A stretch of 64,000 nt of DNA from Niabella yanshanensis. GTDB taxonomy: Bacteria; Bacteroidota; Bacteroidia; Chitinophagales; Chitinophagaceae. Location of the stretch: assembly GCF_034424215.1 (NCBI RefSeq), contig NZ_CP139960.1, positions 5,022,001 through 5,086,000 on the forward strand, written 5' to 3'. The notes beneath the pieces were generated by a model that was given only the letters and a program-made list of their open reading frames with translations, did not search any database and was not told the DNA's origin. Positions within the stretch are counted from its first letter, which is position 1. Every line of letters begins with the position of its first letter. This document shows, piece by piece, positions 11,401 through 20,131 of the stretch. Made by a program: the position numbers and the translations under genes.

Positions 11401-12152
11401 AAATTATGGGTTTCAGCCTTTAATGATAAAACCGATTCAAATTCTTTCTCTTCGTAATAGTCGGGTTTGTCAGCTGACTTTGGCGCAAACTGGGTTACTT
11501 TCGGGCCCTTTACAAAAGCCACATTGTCTTTATAAGCAGATACAATATCGTTAGGATGAGTTTCAGAAGTCTTTTTGATCAGCTTAAACAAGGATGTAGG
11601 CATTTCTTCACCATCAATCACAAACGTTCCATTGAATATTTTGTGGCGGCAATGTTCCGAATTGGCCTGCGAGAAAGCAAAAACTTCAGAATCGGTGAGT
11701 TTACGGCCAATTTTAACAGCAAGCCGATTGAGATAATCCACCTCTTCAGCACTGAGCGCCAGGCCTTCCGATTTATTATAAGCATCAATATCATCAATTT
11801 CCTGTATGGGTTCAGGCGCAATTTGTATCGTATACATGTCCTGTGTCAGGGATGCATATTTCTGGGAGATCATCGGGTCAAAAGCATTGAAATCAGCTGG
11901 TACCGGCTGAAATTCTTCAATACGGGTGATACCCTTAATACCCATATTCTGCGTGATTTCCACAGCATTGGTGCTCCAGGGGGTGATCATCGCGGCACGT
12001 GGCCCCACATAATAATGGTTAAGAATAGTTTCTCCTAGTTTTTGGGCATTGCCGAACAGCCAGTTTAGCTTCTGTATGTCTTCCTGGGCTAGCTCATTTT
12101 GTGTTTGAACGCCGTATACAATATGTTTGGGATTCTGAAAGAAATGGATCAT
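8463..12152 (-). CDS. purL: Phosphoribosylformylglycinamidine synthase, single-chain type
   Basis: 1229 residues from the ATG at 12152. The enzyme converts FGAR, glutamine and ATP to FGAM in purine synthesis. It is the long fused form: N-terminal PurS-like region, linker, two AIRS-like ATP-binding halves (K-A-E-T-H-N-F-P-T near residue 245; later D-V-G-S-G-G-L) and a C-terminal class I glutaminase with the G-I-C-N-G-C-Q nucleophile elbow and a late H-x-E pair. The frame is open back to a TTG at 12254, but the -7 box TAAGTTTG at 12201-12208 lies inside that extension, supporting the ATG. It is not clustered with other pur genes here. Confidence 0.97.
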   Translation of the reverse strand: MIHFFQNPKHIVYGVQTQNELAQEDIQKLNWLFGNAQKLGETILNHYYVGPRAAMITPWSTNAVEITQNMGIKGITRIEEFQPVPADFNAFDPMISQKYASLTQDMYTIQIAPEPIQEIDDIDAYNKSEGLALSAEEVDYLNRLAVKIGRKLTDSEVFAFSQANSEHCRHKIFNGTFVIDGEEMPTSLFKLIKKTSETHPNDIVSAYKDNVAFVKGPKVTQFAPKSADKPDYYEEKEFESVLSLKAETHNFPTTVEPFAGAATGSGGEIRDRLAGGQGALPLAGTAIYMTAYSRLQEDRPWETAMEERQWLYQTPMDILIKASNGASDFGNKFGQPLITGSVFTFEHEHFDKLSGTTRKLGYDKVIMQAGGVGYGKLEQAKKYTPKEGDKIVILGGENYRIGMGGAAVSSADTGAFGSGIELNAIQRSNPEMQKRAANAIRGLVESDHNPIVSIHDHGAGGHLNCLSELVEEKGGLIDLDKLPVGDPTLSAKEIIGNESQERMGLVIGEKDIDILQKVADRERAPMYTVGDVTGDHRFTFQSKSKGEKPMDYALEDFFGSSPKTIMKDSKISHNYDELSYDVNNVPAYLEQVLQLEAVASKDWLTNKVDRCVGGRVAKQQCAGPLQLTLNNVGVMALDYKSTEGIATTVGHSPLTALVDPAAGSRNAMGEALSNIVFAPIKNGLKGISLSANWMWACNNEGEDARLYEAVKACSDFAIALGINIPTGKDSLSMKQKYPDGSVIAPGTVIISAAGNCTDINKVVEPVLQKNAGSVYYINLTKDVFQLGGSSFAQIINKIGNKVASVKDADYFARAFNAIQDAINNGLIAAGHDVGSGGLITTLLEMCFADINLAANYDLSRLNEADTVKALFNENIAVVLQAQNDERLETLFAAAGIEVVKIGTVLEDTTVTVKNNADSFSFDVAATRDTWYKTSFLLDQKQSKNGTAQERYNNYKNQPLQYRFPAQFNGKKPVIDVSKPRPKAAILREKGSNSEREMANAMYLAGFDVRDVHMTDLITGRETLEDIQFIGAVGGFSNSDVLGSAKGWAGAFLYNEKAKTALDQFFARPDTLSVGICNGCQLFMELELINPDHTVHGKLLHNNSGKHESNFVSVKVQENKSVMLKSLAGTTLGVWISHGEGKFNLPEGEGQYDIVAKYAYDQYPHNPNGSDYNTAMMCDATGRHLVTMPHIERSIFQWNWAHYPAGRQDEVSPWIEAFVNARQWIEDQKQ

Positions 12153-14449: not shown

Positions 14450-14555
14450 TCGATAAGGGCCTAGTATGGATAACAGCTAATACAAGCGACGTTTATCAGG
14501 TCAATAAGTTTTGCCTTGTCATATTTTATGGGATAGTGGATGTCGTTAATAGCAA

Positions 14556-14596
14556 AAGCCTGCAATTCTTTCGAACTGCAGGCTTCAACTTTTTTA
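14556..14596. terminator. Hairpin terminator, probably the original tRNA-Ser terminator
   Basis: A 9-bp stem AAGCCTGCA/TGCAGGCTT (14556-14564 and 14577-14585), extended by three inner pairs (TTC/GAA) around a TTTC loop. T-runs follow on the plus side (14590-14595) and GGCTTTTG follows on the minus side. It can end the 14045 gene, and read on the minus strand it lies just past the tRNA 3' fragment at 14612, where the tRNA-Ser terminator would have been before the island inserted. Confidence 0.75.
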
Positions 14597-14611
14597 AACG
14601 TCTCCGCTTTT

Positions 14612-14637
14612 CAGCGGAGAGAGAGGGATTCGAACCC
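14612..14637 (-). repeat. Left attachment site: 26-bp copy of tRNA-Ser 3' end
   Basis: Identical for 26 bp to 20044-20069 (acceptor 3' strand plus T-arm of the tRNA). Sequence identity stops at 14638. Nothing resembling the rest of a tRNA follows, so this is a fragment, not a gene. Confidence 0.85.
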
Positions 14638-14754: not shown

Positions 14755-15030
14755 CTACTGCAATTTATTTGACTCAAAGAACGCTTTGATTTCTACTAAG
14801 TTCAAAATTACCACTTTCTTTTCTTTAATGCAAAAATGAGCTAAATTATATGAATCTATAAAAGCTTCAAATGAACAAAACGCGAAAAATACCCTATCAC
14901 TAATCAAGTAATACGTAGCCTCGACAGCTTTATACTCAGCTTCTGAAACCAGGTTTTGCGAAAGATGAGGATATATTGTTGTTGATGTATGGCATTTATG
15001 ATTTAACGCTTGAGAGGCTTCTATAAACAT
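14755..15030 (-). CDS. Unknown 91-residue protein at the end of the peptide-export operon
   Basis: From the ATG at 15030 (a TTG at 15048 would add six residues). No signal peptide, transmembrane segment or known motif is visible; the sequence is rich in aromatic and acidic residues and has four cysteines. It is 81 bp downstream of the PCAT stop on the same strand. Position makes it a candidate immunity or accessory protein of the peptide system, or simply leftover island DNA. Function is not assigned. Confidence 0.45.
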   Translation of the reverse strand: MFIEASQALNHKCHTSTTIYPHLSQNLVSEAEYKAVEATYYLISDRVFFAFCSFEAFIDSYNLAHFCIKEKKVVILNLVEIKAFFESNKLQ

Positions 15031-15111
15031 ACGAGCCGAAAAGAACAATAGGACCCTGTAATATTATATCCAGCGAACAATTCTCGCTCGTAAACTAAGA
15101 ACATTGACTGC

Positions 15112-17316
15112 TTAATGAAGAATATCTTGCCAATAATTACCATACAGGTTATGGCCTTTTATTAAATCGGAGTGACTGCCGGATGTGGTTATTGTTCCGT
15201 TTTCCAGTAAATAAATTCTGTCACACAGTGACTTTAGGACGTGCAGTCGGTGGGTAATAAAAATAATACCCATTTGTTTCTTTAGTTTCGAAAGTAGAGC
15301 TAAAACAAATTGCTCACTATTTCTATCCATAGCTGCGGTAGCCTCGTCTAAGATCAAAAGCTGTGGCTTTTTATACAGTGCCCTCGCTATCGCGATCATT
15401 TGCTTTTGTCCGCCGGAAAGGTTGATTCCTCCTTCACCAACAATTGTCATTATCGATTGTGGCATGGCGTCAATATAAGGCGAAAAGCCATATTGTTTTA
15501 AAAATTGAATAACCTCACTTGTCTTTTGGGTCGCGTCTTCAAATGCTATGTTTTCAAGAACGGTTGCGTTAAAAATATGGATATCCTGCGGAACAATTTT
15601 CACAAGATTTCTCCATGCAGCAATATCAATATGCTGTAACAACAACGATTTATTAATAAAAATGTCTCCGCTCTCTGCCGTATAGTTTTTCTGCAGTAAT
15701 TCAGCAATTGTACTTTTTCCGCAACCATTCTCACCCATTAAGGCAACGATCTCACCTTTTCTGATTGTGAAAGAAATATCTTTTAATAACGGTTTGCGAC
15801 CGGCAAAACGGAAAAAGAGCCTATTTGCCGATAAGCATTCAAAAGCAGAAATTAATTCGTTACTCTCTGCTTTTTCTGACTTGCTGGAAGCAAAGTCGAA
15901 CATTCGATCAAACGCTATTTTTGCTTCATTAATAGGAATAGATATCATTGCAAGGTTCGCTACTGCGGGTAGCATTGTCCCGCACATGGATAAAATCGCA
16001 ATCAGCTCTCCAATTTGGAGTTGGTTATTTAGCACCTCGTAACAACAATATGAAAGAATACCGATTAAAAATAGAACGCCCAATGTACTAACAATAGCCG
16101 AGAGTTTGATTTGTATGCTGTTGAGGCTATAAACAGCCTCTTGAAACTTTTTATATATATTATGATTAGCTTCTTGAAACAAATTTTGACTATTATTATT
16201 TTTAACAGTCTCGATACCTTGCAACGTCGATATATAATTGGCTTCGACTGCGGCATAGCCCACCATTACATTTTTCTGTCTTTTGACAATTGAGGCATTG
16301 TTTTTATAGATCAATAAGTAAAAAAGGGGCATTACTAGCAAACATATAAAACCAACTGGCAGCGAATAAGCAAAAACAAGTATAAGTGATATTAGAACCG
16401 CTAAAACATCAATCACTACACTGCCTGCGAGTTGACTTATAGCACGCTGAATGCGACTCGTGTCATTTAATCTCGCAGTCATATCCCCAATTTTGTGTGT
16501 GTCAAAAAAAGACTTCGGTAACGAGAGTAGATGATTAAAGAAGAAGCTAATTATGCGGATGTTGAACAACTTAGCTTGCCGTATTAAAAAATGTTGTCTT
16601 AAAATCGACAAACCTTCCTTAATTAGCAATAATAAAAAGACGAGGATAATTCCCCCAAGCAATTTCACCAAGTTCTTATTTGGCAAAATATCATCAATCA
16701 AGCGTTGAGAGAAAATTGCCATTGCCAGGCTTAGACCAGCTACAAAAATACCTAAACATGCACCAATGCTTAATAAATGGGTGTCTTCTCTTATGAGGTC
16801 CTTAATCCATCTTATTTTAGCCTGTCTTTTGTTAGATGTTTTTATGAAGTGCTCATTGGGGGAAAGAGTTAGACAAGTTTTTGTATGCCAAATATCGGCC
16901 AGCTCCTCTTTGCTGTAGTATGATACACCTTTTGCTGGATCTCCTATTAGAAAAGCCTGAGTCGCTTCATTTGCAGTGGTTTTATTTGATACGGGGAAAT
17001 ATCCGAAACACACAACATAATGATATGAATTGCCACTAGCGGTTACATGTAATATACAAGGATTCGGATGCTTTATGAGAGAATCAAGATCAGATTCACA
17101 ACCTTCGGCAGTAAATCCGATGCTATTCGCAGCTTGATACAGCCCAAGCAATGTTGTACCGATCGAGTTGGTACCGCTAAGAATTCTTAAGTTTTCTAAA
17201 GTATTTGAACCATCATAGTACTTTATCAATGATAGCAAGCAAGCTATCCCGCAGTCGGTCTTATCTTGCTGATGTACTAATGAAATTTGAGCGGCCTTTA
17301 ATTGTGTAGATCGCAT
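15112..17316 (-). CDS. Peptidase-containing ABC transporter (PCAT) for double-glycine peptides
   Basis: 734 residues in three parts. Residues about 8-150 are a C39 peptidase: oxyanion Gln16, catalytic Cys22 (T-D-C-G-I-A-C), His99 (Y-H-Y-V-V) and Asp126 (I-G-D-P). A six-helix ABC exporter domain follows (about 180-470). The C-terminal ATPase has Walker A G-E-N-G-C-G-K-S-T, signature L-S-G-G-Q-K-Q and Walker B L-L-I-L-D-E-A-T. Such proteins cut leaders after Gly-Gly and export the mature peptide. All catalytic residues are present, so it should be active. It is 2 bp downstream of the thioredoxin-like gene and in the same operon as the leader peptide at 18795-18992, its probable substrate. Confidence 0.95.
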   Translation of the reverse strand: MRSTQLKAAQISLVHQQDKTDCGIACLLSLIKYYDGSNTLENLRILSGTNSIGTTLLGLYQAANSIGFTAEGCESDLDSLIKHPNPCILHVTASGNSYHYVVCFGYFPVSNKTTANEATQAFLIGDPAKGVSYYSKEELADIWHTKTCLTLSPNEHFIKTSNKRQAKIRWIKDLIREDTHLLSIGACLGIFVAGLSLAMAIFSQRLIDDILPNKNLVKLLGGIILVFLLLLIKEGLSILRQHFLIRQAKLFNIRIISFFFNHLLSLPKSFFDTHKIGDMTARLNDTSRIQRAISQLAGSVVIDVLAVLISLILVFAYSLPVGFICLLVMPLFYLLIYKNNASIVKRQKNVMVGYAAVEANYISTLQGIETVKNNNSQNLFQEANHNIYKKFQEAVYSLNSIQIKLSAIVSTLGVLFLIGILSYCCYEVLNNQLQIGELIAILSMCGTMLPAVANLAMISIPINEAKIAFDRMFDFASSKSEKAESNELISAFECLSANRLFFRFAGRKPLLKDISFTIRKGEIVALMGENGCGKSTIAELLQKNYTAESGDIFINKSLLLQHIDIAAWRNLVKIVPQDIHIFNATVLENIAFEDATQKTSEVIQFLKQYGFSPYIDAMPQSIMTIVGEGGINLSGGQKQMIAIARALYKKPQLLILDEATAAMDRNSEQFVLALLSKLKKQMGIIFITHRLHVLKSLCDRIYLLENGTITTSGSHSDLIKGHNLYGNYWQDILH

Positions 17317-17318
17317 TT

Positions 17319-17834
17319 TTATTTAACGGCGTCTATGAGCGCCTCTATTTTTACTTCCCCATCATATTTTTTTAATAGATGGCCGTTTTTAGCATAAATG
17401 AAAATTGTGGGGACGCTTTTTGCTCCAAAGATTTGATACATGATATTATCGGCATCTCGAAGCAATCTAACAAACGGGAAAGCAGAAAGATTATATTGAC
17501 GGTAAAAGTTTCTAAGTAGATTTTCCGATTCTGAGGAAACCAATAAAAAATTGCTCTTTTGTAATGTTTCTGCGTTTTTAAGAATTTGGTTAGTTTCGTA
17601 TTGGCAATGTTCGCATCCCGTATTGAAATAAATGATTACTGTGCTTTTGTCCTTTATCAGTGAATCACTACCAAAATGAGTATTATTTAAGGTGTAAAAA
17701 TTAAAAGGTGGTAGCGTGCTTATTCGCTCCTTTACAAGACTTTTTTTATTCAGTGTATGCACAATTCTATACACTAAAAAACCACCAATTCCCAGTAGTG
17801 CTAAAATTGTAAAATACTTAGCGAATATTCGCAT
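17319..17834 (-). CDS. Membrane-anchored thioredoxin-like oxidoreductase
   Basis: 171 residues: a single N-terminal membrane helix (about 8-26) then a thioredoxin fold with the redox motif C-E-H-C (Cys74, Cys77) and the cis-Pro segment S-V-P-T near residue 146. The domain should face the periplasm. It probably makes or reshuffles the disulfide of the two-cysteine peptide in the same operon; that role is inferred from context. It is 1 bp from the upstream membrane-protein gene and 2 bp from the PCAT gene. The C-x-H-C-Q-x-E-T pattern matches the chromosomal protein at 29069-29560. Confidence 0.85.
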   Translation of the reverse strand: MRIFAKYFTILALLGIGGFLVYRIVHTLNKKSLVKERISTLPPFNFYTLNNTHFGSDSLIKDKSTVIIYFNTGCEHCQYETNQILKNAETLQKSNFLLVSSESENLLRNFYRQYNLSAFPFVRLLRDADNIMYQIFGAKSVPTIFIYAKNGHLLKKYDGEVKIEALIDAVK

Positions 17835-17835
17835 T

Positions 17836-18480
17836 CTAAGAGAATTGCAATGTTAAAAACACTATGACTAACATCCAAATTAGCAACCCTATAAGATATG
17901 GAATACAAAAACGCTTAAATGCTACAGTTTTAGATACATTAAACTGATTGGCGTACAAGAGCGTACCAATATAACAAAATAAGACTTCCCAAATATTTAT
18001 GGTTTGAAGCGGGTACATTGCCCACACTTCTATATCTTTTGTTCCCCAAAAACCGCTTAGTGCACCGGGAATGGAGCTAAAATCGTTTAAATTATTTACT
18101 TCTATAAAAAAAGAAAATGCGACCATTTTCACTAAAAGCATTACGCAAAAAATGATTTCAGCCTTCAAACATACATTTATATTGCCCCGAATATCGAATC
18201 TTCCATTCAATGAAGAATATACGGTTATCGCAAAAGCATTGTACAATATCTTTATTAGCAAAAATACTGGGAGAAGAATTAGTACAACAAGTTGCTTCTT
18301 TTCTTGATCTTCGTAAATATTAAGAATTCTTTCTATCGATATCTGGTCTGCAAAACTGTTGTACAGTATAGTCTTTGAAAAAAAGACATTGTTGATAGTG
18401 TAAGTTTCCAGAATTAAAAAACCGGAAAGCACAACAAAAAACAACCAAAACCTTATCTGAAGAAGTTCTTTTAACAACAC
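17836..18480 (-). CDS. Polytopic membrane protein of the peptide-export operon
   Basis: 214 residues with about five to six hydrophobic segments (around 11-30, 61-90, 105-130, 160-178 and 190-212). The general shape recalls YIP1-like membrane proteins, but no motif settles it. The start is GTG at 18480, 11 bp after the upstream stop; no in-frame ATG is suitably placed. Tight packing inside the operon suggests a role in immunity or export of the peptide. Not recognised as a named family. Confidence 0.65.
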   Translation of the reverse strand: MLLKELLQIRFWLFFVVLSGFLILETYTINNVFFSKTILYNSFADQISIERILNIYEDQEKKQLVVLILLPVFLLIKILYNAFAITVYSSLNGRFDIRGNINVCLKAEIIFCVMLLVKMVAFSFFIEVNNLNDFSSIPGALSGFWGTKDIEVWAMYPLQTINIWEVLFCYIGTLLYANQFNVSKTVAFKRFCIPYLIGLLIWMLVIVFLTLQFS

Positions 18481-18491
18481 AAAGAAGAAAA

Positions 18492-18734
18492 TTATTTATT
18501 CTTAAAATACATATCTTGAAAGTATCTAATCGAATAAAAGGGTATTAATAGTTTCCAAATTTCTGATCGCTTTATCAAACCCAAATGAACAAGTCTTTCT
18601 CCATCAACAATAGTTCTATAAACGAGACAATACCCCAGTAATGCAATAACAAAATAAAGTGAACCTAAAGAGGAGCTCCAAACTATGAATCCGATAGGAA
18701 GAATAATTAATAGATAATATGTAAGAAGTTTCAT
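18492..18734 (-). CDS. Small membrane protein of the peptide-export operon
   Basis: 80 residues. Two adjacent hydrophobic helices (about 3-40) are followed by a basic, amphipathic tail. It is the first gene after the leader peptide (60 bp downstream of its stop) and is 11 bp upstream of the 214-residue membrane protein. Small two-helix membrane proteins next to a bacteriocin precursor are often immunity proteins, but this is inferred from size and position only. Confidence 0.65.
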   Translation of the reverse strand: MKLLTYYLLIILPIGFIVWSSSLGSLYFVIALLGYCLVYRTIVDGERLVHLGLIKRSEIWKLLIPFYSIRYFQDMYFKNK

Positions 18735-18794
18735 AATAAAAGTGATTTAGGGATGAGGGGAATAACAGGCACTATTCATGCCTGTTTAAATTAC

Positions 18795-18992
18795 TTAATG
18801 AACATTTTTCGCCATGCAATTCGTAGCAATAGCAAGCCCTGTAACTGGAATTGCAATTGTTTGAATATACAACCATACAGAAACCCATCCGTGATTGTCA
18901 TACGCATCGTTAATGCAATCCATTGTGCCTTGGCCATCAATACTTTTACCGCCTTCAATTCGCTCCATTTGAGCCATGTCAATCTTTTTCAT
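18795..18992 (-). CDS. Double-glycine-leader peptide precursor (bacteriocin-like)
   Basis: 65 residues. Residues 1-15 form a GG leader: Gly14-Gly15 at -2/-1 and hydrophobic residues at -4 (Ile12), -7 (Met9) and -12 (Ile4), the pattern recognised by C39 peptidases. Cleavage would release a 50-residue core with two cysteines (Cys26, Cys59) and a hydrophobic stretch (about 36-57) bounded by Trp36/Trp40 and Asn58. A Cys26-Cys59 disulfide would close most of the core into one loop. It is the first gene of the operon with the PCAT and thioredoxin-like proteins. No Ser/Thr-rich lanthipeptide core and no maturase gene is present. Probably an unmodified class-II-like bacteriocin or a signalling peptide. 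Confidence 0.85.
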   Translation of the reverse strand: MKKIDMAQMERIEGGKSIDGQGTMDCINDAYDNHGWVSVWLYIQTIAIPVTGLAIATNCMAKNVH

Positions 18993-19216
18993 TTGTTATG
19001 TTTTTAGTGTTTTGTCCACCCTGTCTTTCGCCTTGGGTAGTTTGTTCAGCGTCCTGGTTTTAAGCACAAAGGAAAATGCTACTTTGCTTTGGTGTGCAAA
19101 TGCTAAACCACGTAATTGAAAGTACAAGCATTAGATAAGGGTAATTCGATGTTTAGGTAGCAATTTGCATTGTTCATTTCGGTTACCAATTTCAAATTTT
19201 ATAAATTCAATATTTT

Positions 19217-19245
19217 CAAATGTATAAAGCGAAAAGGATAACAAA
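19217..19245 (-). promoter_or_regulatory. Promoter of the peptide operon
   Basis: Minus-strand -33 element TTTG (19242-19245), 17-nt spacer and perfect -7 element TACATTTG (19217-19224). Transcription would start near 19210, giving a leader of about 215 nt before the precursor ATG at 18992. Confidence 0.55.
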
Positions 19246-19692: not shown

Positions 19693-19824
19693 ATGGACAT
19701 AGATAAACTGGAATTCATCAATTGGATGCAGCGTGTGATGCAGCGATTCGATATGATCACGGAACTGCTCCGGGAAAAACAATTGCAGAAACCAACAATT
19801 GAAGGAGATGAGCTGCTTGATTAA
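19693..19824 (+). pseudogene. Truncated gene resembling the small helix-turn-helix proteins of Bacteroidota mobile elements
   Basis: 43 residues starting M-D-I-D-K-L-E-F-I-N, with the long amphipathic N-terminal helix and E-G-D-E-L-L-D that in these proteins comes just before the helix-turn-helix. The frame stops at exactly the point where the helix-turn-helix should begin and runs into the opposite-strand integrase remnant. Recognition is from memory of the family and moderately sure; full proteins are about 90-120 residues. Confidence 0.5.
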
Positions 19825-19963
19825 TATTCCCGTACTTGACAATTCTTTTACTTACTAGTCCATTCTTGTAAGGTTCGTACCATTCAACTCTCCAGCGCTG
19901 GGAGAGGTCGTAGTCATAGGTCTTAATTTCTGGTACAAAAAATTTTTTTTCTCTTGTATTCAT
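19820..19963 (-). pseudogene. N-terminal remnant of a tyrosine recombinase (integrase)
   Basis: 48 residues with the start seen in Bacteroidota tyrosine integrases: an arm-binding-type segment with P-E-I-K-T-Y-D, D-L-S-Q-R-W-R-V-E-W-Y and K-Y-G-N-I-N. Resemblance ends after N-I-N, where the helix-turn-helix remnant on the other strand begins, so a deletion seems to have joined the two. The catalytic domain (R..H-x-x-R..Y) is absent. It points away from the tRNA with its start 81 bp from the attachment repeat, the usual arrangement. Confidence 0.6.
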
Positions 19964-20043: not shown

Positions 20044-20069
20044 CAGCGGAGAGAGAGGGATTCGAACCC
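20044..20069 (-). repeat. Right attachment site within tRNA-Ser
   Basis: 26-bp segment covering the tRNA acceptor 3' strand and T-arm plus 3 flanking bases; identical to 14612-14637. Confidence 0.85.
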
Positions 20070-20131
20070 CCGGACCTGTTACAGTCAACGGTTTTCAAGA
20101 CCGCCGCATTCGACCACTCTGCCATCTCTCC
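20047..20131 (-). tRNA. tRNA-Ser (anticodon UGA)
   Basis: 85-nt class II tRNA read on the minus strand. The acceptor GGAGAGA pairs with TCTCTCC; discriminator G is at 20047. The anticodon loop CTTGAAA carries TGA (plus positions 20095-20097), a variable arm follows, and the T-arm has GGTTCGAAT. CCA is not encoded. The island lies directly 3' of it, and its 3' end is duplicated at 14612-14637. Confidence 0.97.

Follow-up and report, generated by a model that had tools for sequence, protein, structure and literature searches.

A probable bacteroidetocin-type bacteriocin cassette with a candidate immunity gene on a tRNA-Ser island of Niabella yanshanensis

How does a bacterium survive a bacteriocin that it produces itself? 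For the bacteroidetocins (class IIf; A to D), which target the outer-membrane protein BamA (PMC8546649), producer survival is puzzling: producers of bacteroidetocins A and B are killed by their own toxin, an immunity gene was not found, and neither the transmembrane (TM) protein nor the oxidoreductase encoded beside the peptide confers immunity (PMC6671954). Here we analyse 64,000 nucleotides of the Niabella yanshanensis genome (assembly GCF_034424215.1, contig NZ_CP139960.1, positions 5,022,001 to 5,086,000; the whole stretch is called the window), in which a small genomic island carries a five-gene operon for a predicted secreted peptide. We consider it likely that this operon is a bacteriocin cassette with the bacteroidetocin gene set which carries, in addition, its own candidate immunity gene, encoding an 80-residue membrane protein (p80). 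Such a core-linked membrane protein makes the question of producer survival testable. For a more far-reaching reading we see evenly balanced chances: one bacteriocin domain with a dedicated inner-membrane immunity protein would use two unrelated export routes, as a double-glycine peptide cut by a peptidase-containing ATP-binding cassette (ABC) transporter (PCAT) or as a C-terminal part that can be released from a Sec or lipoprotein precursor, with more than one switch between them. If true, this would show toxins to move together with their immunity genes and independently of the export genes, and p80 would be the first known immunity gene for bacteroidetocin-type cassettes.

The operon occupies positions 15112-18992 on the minus strand and comprises, in this order, the genes for the peptide precursor, p80, a 214-residue membrane protein, a thioredoxin-like protein and the PCAT; the peptide gene is separated from the next by about 60 nt, the others from one another by 1-11 nt. 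The 65-residue precursor (18795-18992) starts with a 15-residue double-glycine (GG) leader, MKKIDMAQMERIEGG (18948-18992), which places Ile, Met and Ile at positions -4, -7 and -12. It is followed by the 50-residue core (residues 16-65; 18798-18947), which has a net charge of -2 and exactly two cysteines, Cys26 and Cys59 of the precursor, corresponding to Cys11 and Cys44 of the core. Among the 158 open reading frames (ORFs) of 40-110 residues that start with ATG across the window, only the peptide ORF begins with a GG-leader-like sequence. The second gene (18492-18734) encodes p80 with two TM segments, the third (17836-18480, GTG start) a multi-TM protein that is distantly Yip1-like, and the fourth (17319-17834) a membrane-anchored thioredoxin-like protein with a CEHC motif at residue 74, which matches the Pfam families Thioredoxin and AhpC-TSA above the curated cut-off. 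The PCAT (734 residues, 15112-17316) combines a C39 peptidase, an ABC permease and an ATPase (PF03412, PF00664, PF00005) and retains Cys22, His99 and Asp126 as well as the Walker A motif and LSGGQ. An initial annotation, made from the DNA letters, had described this five-gene order, the leader pattern, the two cysteines and the three PCAT residues, all of which we find as described; its proposal of a PCAT-matured peptide is in line with the leader and the intact transporter. Likewise, no lanthionine, radical-SAM or azole enzyme domain was recognised among the scanned island ORFs, as it had noted, and the island holds no further ORF of that size. A 97-residue ORF (TTG start, 14755-15048), which had been included in the annotated region, has no domain match and is probably not a gene. 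Pfam and NCBIfam gave no match for the peptide, p80 or the 214-residue protein, and PHROGs returned weak matches only for five ORFs of the window (best E 0.014).

While the system had been put forward as possibly undescribed, its gene set is that of the published bacteroidetocin regions. They combine a thiol oxidoreductase, a PCAT and a 5-TM protein with a GG peptide that has two or more cysteines; killing is attenuated when the gene for the peptide, the 5-TM protein or the oxidoreductase is deleted, and in E. coli these four genes are enough (PMC6671954). The leader described here falls within the 15-16 residues of the class, and the 50-residue core with two cysteines within the mature size of 42-53 residues with at least two cysteines (PMC8546649, PMC6671954). 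Moreover, a thiol oxidoreductase and a C39 PCAT stand beside the peptide gene, the 214-residue protein is the counterpart of the 5-TM protein in position and type, and the cassette lies, as the published regions do, on low-GC mobile DNA (PMC6671954). By its gene types the cassette thus belongs to a known class. It differs from bacteroidetocins A and B in having two cysteines instead of four, and from the published regions in that the peptide gene comes first and an extra 80-residue membrane protein is tied to the core; furthermore, the core family also occurs on longer, Sec-type precursors. With the pediocin-like class IIa bacteriocins the cassette shares the GG leader, the PCAT, the putative disulfide and, next to the peptide gene, a gene for a small candidate immunity protein (PMC6671954), whereas the core lacks the YGNGVXC motif, the producer is Gram-negative, the immunity candidate is a membrane protein and the partners are thioredoxin-like and multi-TM proteins. 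What is new here is the core family at 13 loci, its pairing with p80 as a unit, its occurrence in two export settings and the candidate for an immunity protein; a literature search of partial coverage, including PMC10352776 and PMC11195462, returned no report of this core or of a bacteroidetocin immunity protein.

Based on this gene set we propose the following sequence of events. The PCAT peptidase would cut the 65-residue precursor after Gly15 and export the 50-residue core, as the leader, the transporter and published precedent suggest. The membrane-anchored CEHC protein, presumed to be the disulfide-forming enzyme for the peptide, would close the loop between Cys11 and Cys44, which the paired-cysteine pattern described below points to. 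By analogy with the 5-TM protein of bacteroidetocin B, the 214-residue protein may be needed for full production. The released peptide would kill or inhibit related Bacteroidota, while p80, an inner-membrane two-helix protein by prediction, would protect the producer. If p80 is an inner-membrane immunity protein, the target is probably the inner membrane and not BamA.

As judged by sequence, the peptide ORF is not a chance ORF, since relatives of its core occur at 12 other loci, giving 13 distinct loci with the window included (G and L numbers below denote genomes and loci of our survey). A pattern scan of genome contigs with the core gave 5 relatives among 52 pattern stretches. With the own genome left aside, four of the 394 family genomes matched at E < 1e-11, one of these being already in the query; the corresponding counts were four among 395 phylum genomes and three, one of them new, among 395 class genomes. 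The loci of G100 (L049) and G580 (L047) are each counted once. From the family scan, 44 of the 49 matching genomes (E from 7.9e-4 upward) were left out, as were the weak matches of one further search except those of the own genome and G100. A core match in G510 (E 8.6e-4 and 9.9e-5) was rejected, as it overlaps an opposite-strand ORF and no p80 was found with it. In the alignment of 12 cores Cys11, Tyr16, Gly20, Trp21, Ser23, Val24 and Cys44 are invariant; the thirteenth core, from G999, lacks the Trp. A plasmid collection of 72,556 records gave no tblastn match with the core or the 214-residue protein, and in IMG/VR the peptide hit ten pattern stretches, none of which was confirmed, and the 12-row core alignment hit none.

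The core family occurs in two export settings. A GG leader precedes the core at three loci, namely in the window, in G216 and in G464. The gene order in G216 equals that of the window (peptide, p80, a 217-residue TM protein, thioredoxin-like protein, PCAT), and in G464 the peptide and p80 genes lie some 7 kb from the TM, thioredoxin-like and PCAT genes, amid other GG peptides. At the remaining ten loci the GG leader is absent. Nine of these cores end longer frames of 161-235 residues, and the tenth (L045) is interrupted, with a signal-like start just upstream in another frame. Five longer precursors (L048, L052, L080, L082, L152) carry a lipobox-like signal and that of L046 a Sec-like signal, judged by eye; at L054 an upstream lipobox-like stretch lies behind an in-frame stop, and L047 and L049 show no clear in-frame signal, L049 having two glycines right before the core but no leader. 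The N-terminal domains are mutually related in six of the nine longer precursors (jackknife against 200 shuffles each). Near nine of the ten loci no significant PCAT similarity was found (best E 0.79; at least 5.8 kb on both sides for L046, L047, L070, L080 and L082; the PCAT was not searched genome-wide); L152, with 3.1 kb of sequence, stood outside this search. When seven longer-precursor genomes were searched whole for the 214-residue family, five gave no match and G292 a partial match of 93 residues. Among the relatives, six longer precursors, two p80s, one TM protein and one GG precursor were scanned with Pfam and NCBIfam, which yielded nothing over cut-off. No fulvocin-type model matched at E up to 1, and the idea of a relation to fulvocin was dropped. 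In its longer-precursor form the core resembles the published description of BcpT of Phocaeicola in having a lipoprotein precursor and a small downstream immunity gene (candidate here), although BcpT is 499 residues long, is cut by C11 proteases and has a 57-residue lipoprotein as immunity protein (PMC9308784).

The initial annotation had named homologues lacking a conserved GG, or never found beside a PCAT, as evidence against its proposal. Ten of the 12 homologues indeed lack the GG leader, but this leaves the bacteriocin reading in place. Rather, the occurrence of the core without GG leader at ten loci suggests that core and p80 move as a unit, with exporters being interchangeable. With the same core behind two secretion signals, nature has also provided an experiment that tells the requirements of the exporter (leader, paired cysteines) apart from those of the toxin (core motif, p80).

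To describe the exporter module we surveyed relatives of the 214-residue protein, which matched in 11 of 195 family genomes and, by profile, in 22 of 296 phylum genomes, the own genome included in both cases. The survey covers 27 non-window loci: 6 from the family search, G216, and 20 from the phylum profile search. Three weak matches (E about 0.006-0.007) and a broken copy in G022 were excluded from the family set, and the own genome, G022 (two rows), G637 and G441 from the phylum set. A full C39 PCAT adjoins the relative at 18 of the 27 loci; a separate CxxC protein is a neighbour at 16 of these 18 and GG-leader peptides, called by the leader pattern alone, at 17. Two of the 28 same-strand GG matches (window included) were dropped, a fragment with a 9-residue core and an ORF which we take to be TatA-like. 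Of the 26 remaining GG peptides 20 have two cysteines, five have four and one has one, and the distance from first to last cysteine is 25-49 residues in 24 of the 25 with at least two. Since most neighbouring GG peptides have two spaced cysteines, the long-loop layout is, by sequence pattern, a usual property of the cargo of this exporter type. The cores themselves vary widely between loci beside the same exporter type, and at L108, L040, L116 and L122 one exporter module is shared by several GG peptides with differing cores. At L112, L113, L116 and L122 the GG peptide is followed by a gene for an ABC transporter ATPase or a multi-TM protein in place of the small membrane protein, perhaps export-type immunity. 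Candidate peptides for expression can be drawn from these exporter loci together with the 13 loci of the core.

The cysteines of the core family itself show a further regularity. Beyond the inner pair, extra cysteines occur in equal number on both sides at all 13 core loci: none at six loci including the window, one per side at six, and two per side at L046. For presence or absence of outer cysteines (7 vs 6) this corresponds to 1/C(13,6) = 0.0006 with kinship ignored; the evidence is weaker than this number, because on the tree of 12 loci the outer-cysteine state needs at least two changes. The pattern suggests that the cores carry an inner bond and an outer bond, of which the window peptide would have the inner one only. 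The single disulfide loop proposed by the initial annotation is probable as far as the cysteine layout common to GG peptides of this exporter goes, whereas the structure model of the core lends it no support.

Is p80 then a part of the exporter or a companion of the core? At 12 of the 13 loci, and in both export settings, the gene right behind the core encodes a p80 homologue. With the window p80 as tblastn query, nine of the eleven others are found at E about 1e-8 or better and L045 at 0.02, and the 63-residue p80 of L048 is not matched. In a jackknife each of the 12 sequences scores 26.6-94.0 bits against the profile of the other 11, with L048 lowest, compared to at most 14.6 bits for the best of 500 shuffles per p80. 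Since p80 keeps to the core at all loci but one and under either export route, it belongs, by this linkage, to the core and not to the exporter, and because of this independence of the exporter it is the best candidate for the immunity protein. Where this exporter type stands with other cores, the gene behind the core codes for a different small membrane protein, an ABC transporter or an unrelated product; this agrees with a separate antidote for every core, without establishing it. The predicted structure of p80 has two long and two short helices (pLDDT, predicted local distance difference test, 86) and found no Foldseek match in the PDB at E 0.001. A p80 profile run on 99 phylum genomes recovered the own genome, two core loci, a weak match in G456 and two solitary p80-like genes in G436 (L156, L158). 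No core lies beside these two genes, and the core profile has no match in G436 at E up to 1; they are possible orphan immunity genes.

Several observations weigh against the reading of the operon as a bacteroidetocin-type cassette with its own immunity gene. Its likeness to the bacteroidetocins, as established here, is one of gene types. At one core locus, that of G999 (L152), p80 is missing, and the core is followed by an ORF of membrane type with no similarity evident. Core and p80 distances, which derive from short sequences and are near saturation, are uncorrelated (Mantel r -0.15, p 0.76; -0.08, p 0.65 without the short L048 row; 0.11, p 0.28 without L045 too), and thus give no sign of co-divergence. 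The structure model of the core is poor (pLDDT 64), so that the Cys11-Cys44 bond is left without structural support. At 9 of the 27 surveyed loci a full PCAT is absent, one of them (L114) having a remnant, and the 214-residue family is hence not exclusive to this system. As for the longer precursors, the sequence around L045, L048, L049 and L072 reaches no further than 2 kb to one side. In addition, Algoriphagus G580, one of the genomes with such a precursor, carries a separate PCAT cassette on another contig (L126); it has two copies of the 214-residue family away from the core, one of them within that cassette.

Some of these points bear on the alternative that survives best, namely that p80 is a maturation or release factor, that there is no immunity gene and that the producer escapes otherwise, as the producers of bacteroidetocins A and B would. 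The self-killing of those producers, for which no immunity gene was found (PMC6671954), and the uncorrelated core and p80 distances are in line with it. Against it, p80 accompanies the core with GG leader and PCAT as well as with longer precursors near which no PCAT was found (12 of 13 loci), so that a maturation role would have to extend to export routes that are unrelated to each other; p80-like genes also occur as orphans in G436, where the core was not found. We thus regard this alternative as rather unlikely, and p80 as immunity protein as the better account of its distribution.

Less probable still, and in our view quite unlikely, is a role of the peptide in signalling, with p80 taking part in its perception and the behaviour of kin cells under the control of the system. 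PCAT-exported GG peptides do act as signals in other bacteria (PMC7018657), and the acidic core is unlike many pore-forming bacteriocins. Yet the scanned island ORFs include no kinase or regulator domain, p80 consists of 80 residues, mostly two helices, with no known domain, and the cores at the same exporter type differ as widely as toxins should.

With the cassette read as a bacteriocin system, the tree of core plus p80 (12 rows) informs on its export history. The GG label needs three changes on this tree, two of which are forced by one starred branch that joins the GG-type G216 with the longer-precursor G236. Since at least two route changes follow from this branch, the export route has likely, although not provably, changed more than once; constraining the GG rows together is not rejected (approximately unbiased test, p-AU 0.095).

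The operon lies on an island, as the initial annotation had assumed, on which repeat, low GC content and an empty site in a congener agree. A 26-bp direct repeat at 14612-14637 (distal end) and 20044-20069 (proximal end) duplicates the 3' end of tRNA-Ser(tga) (20046-20131, minus strand), the proximal copy being the one at the tRNA gene; both copies are att-like. The island measures 5.43 kb from repeat to repeat, with a GC content of 0.32-0.39 between the repeats. The closest congener examined (G778, L143) has a joined, empty site: its amidohydrolase gene ends at 11497 and is followed by tRNA-Ser (11620-11703) and an anti-sigma-type gene, and window positions 14546-14637 align to 11550-11642 of that locus, continuing into the tRNA. 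In three further congeners (L144-L146) tRNA-Ser adjoins the anti-sigma-type gene and no operon gene has a match in the stretch compared; in two others (L147, L148) the tRNA was not found at the corresponding place. It is very unlikely that the island holds no more than a decaying relic of a cassette without present function: although no intact recombination gene was recognised on it, only short and possibly fragmentary ORFs, and a congener has a broken partial cassette, all five ORFs are intact and the catalytic residues of the PCAT and the CEHC motif are kept.

The possible remnants of mobile genes lie at 19693-19963, a 68-residue ORF on the minus strand with a weak AP2 match and a short ORF on the plus strand; they may resemble the starts of integrase and helix-turn-helix genes. 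The broken cassette of G022, of the same genus (L035, C1:938550-939136), lies elsewhere in the genome and consists of a homologue of the 214-residue protein with several in-frame stops, followed by the C-terminal part of a PCAT only, with no match to the peptide or p80. Relatives of the 214-residue protein also stand among chromosomal genes with no PCAT in the surrounding stretch at L117, L118, L119, L121 and L123. Pfam Yip1 matches three of the eight relatives tested, all below the curated cut-off; of the three scanned loci without PCAT, two (L117, L119) match it, likewise below the cut-off. The own genome encodes a second PCAT (C1:4216184-4216576, within L044, C1:4209000-4222000). Like that of the window it is a C39 exporter near GG-type small ORFs, but no thioredoxin-like neighbour was matched and both candidate peptides have at most one cysteine. 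It is a different export system, flanked by two long ORFs that presumably are HlyD- and TolC-type genes.

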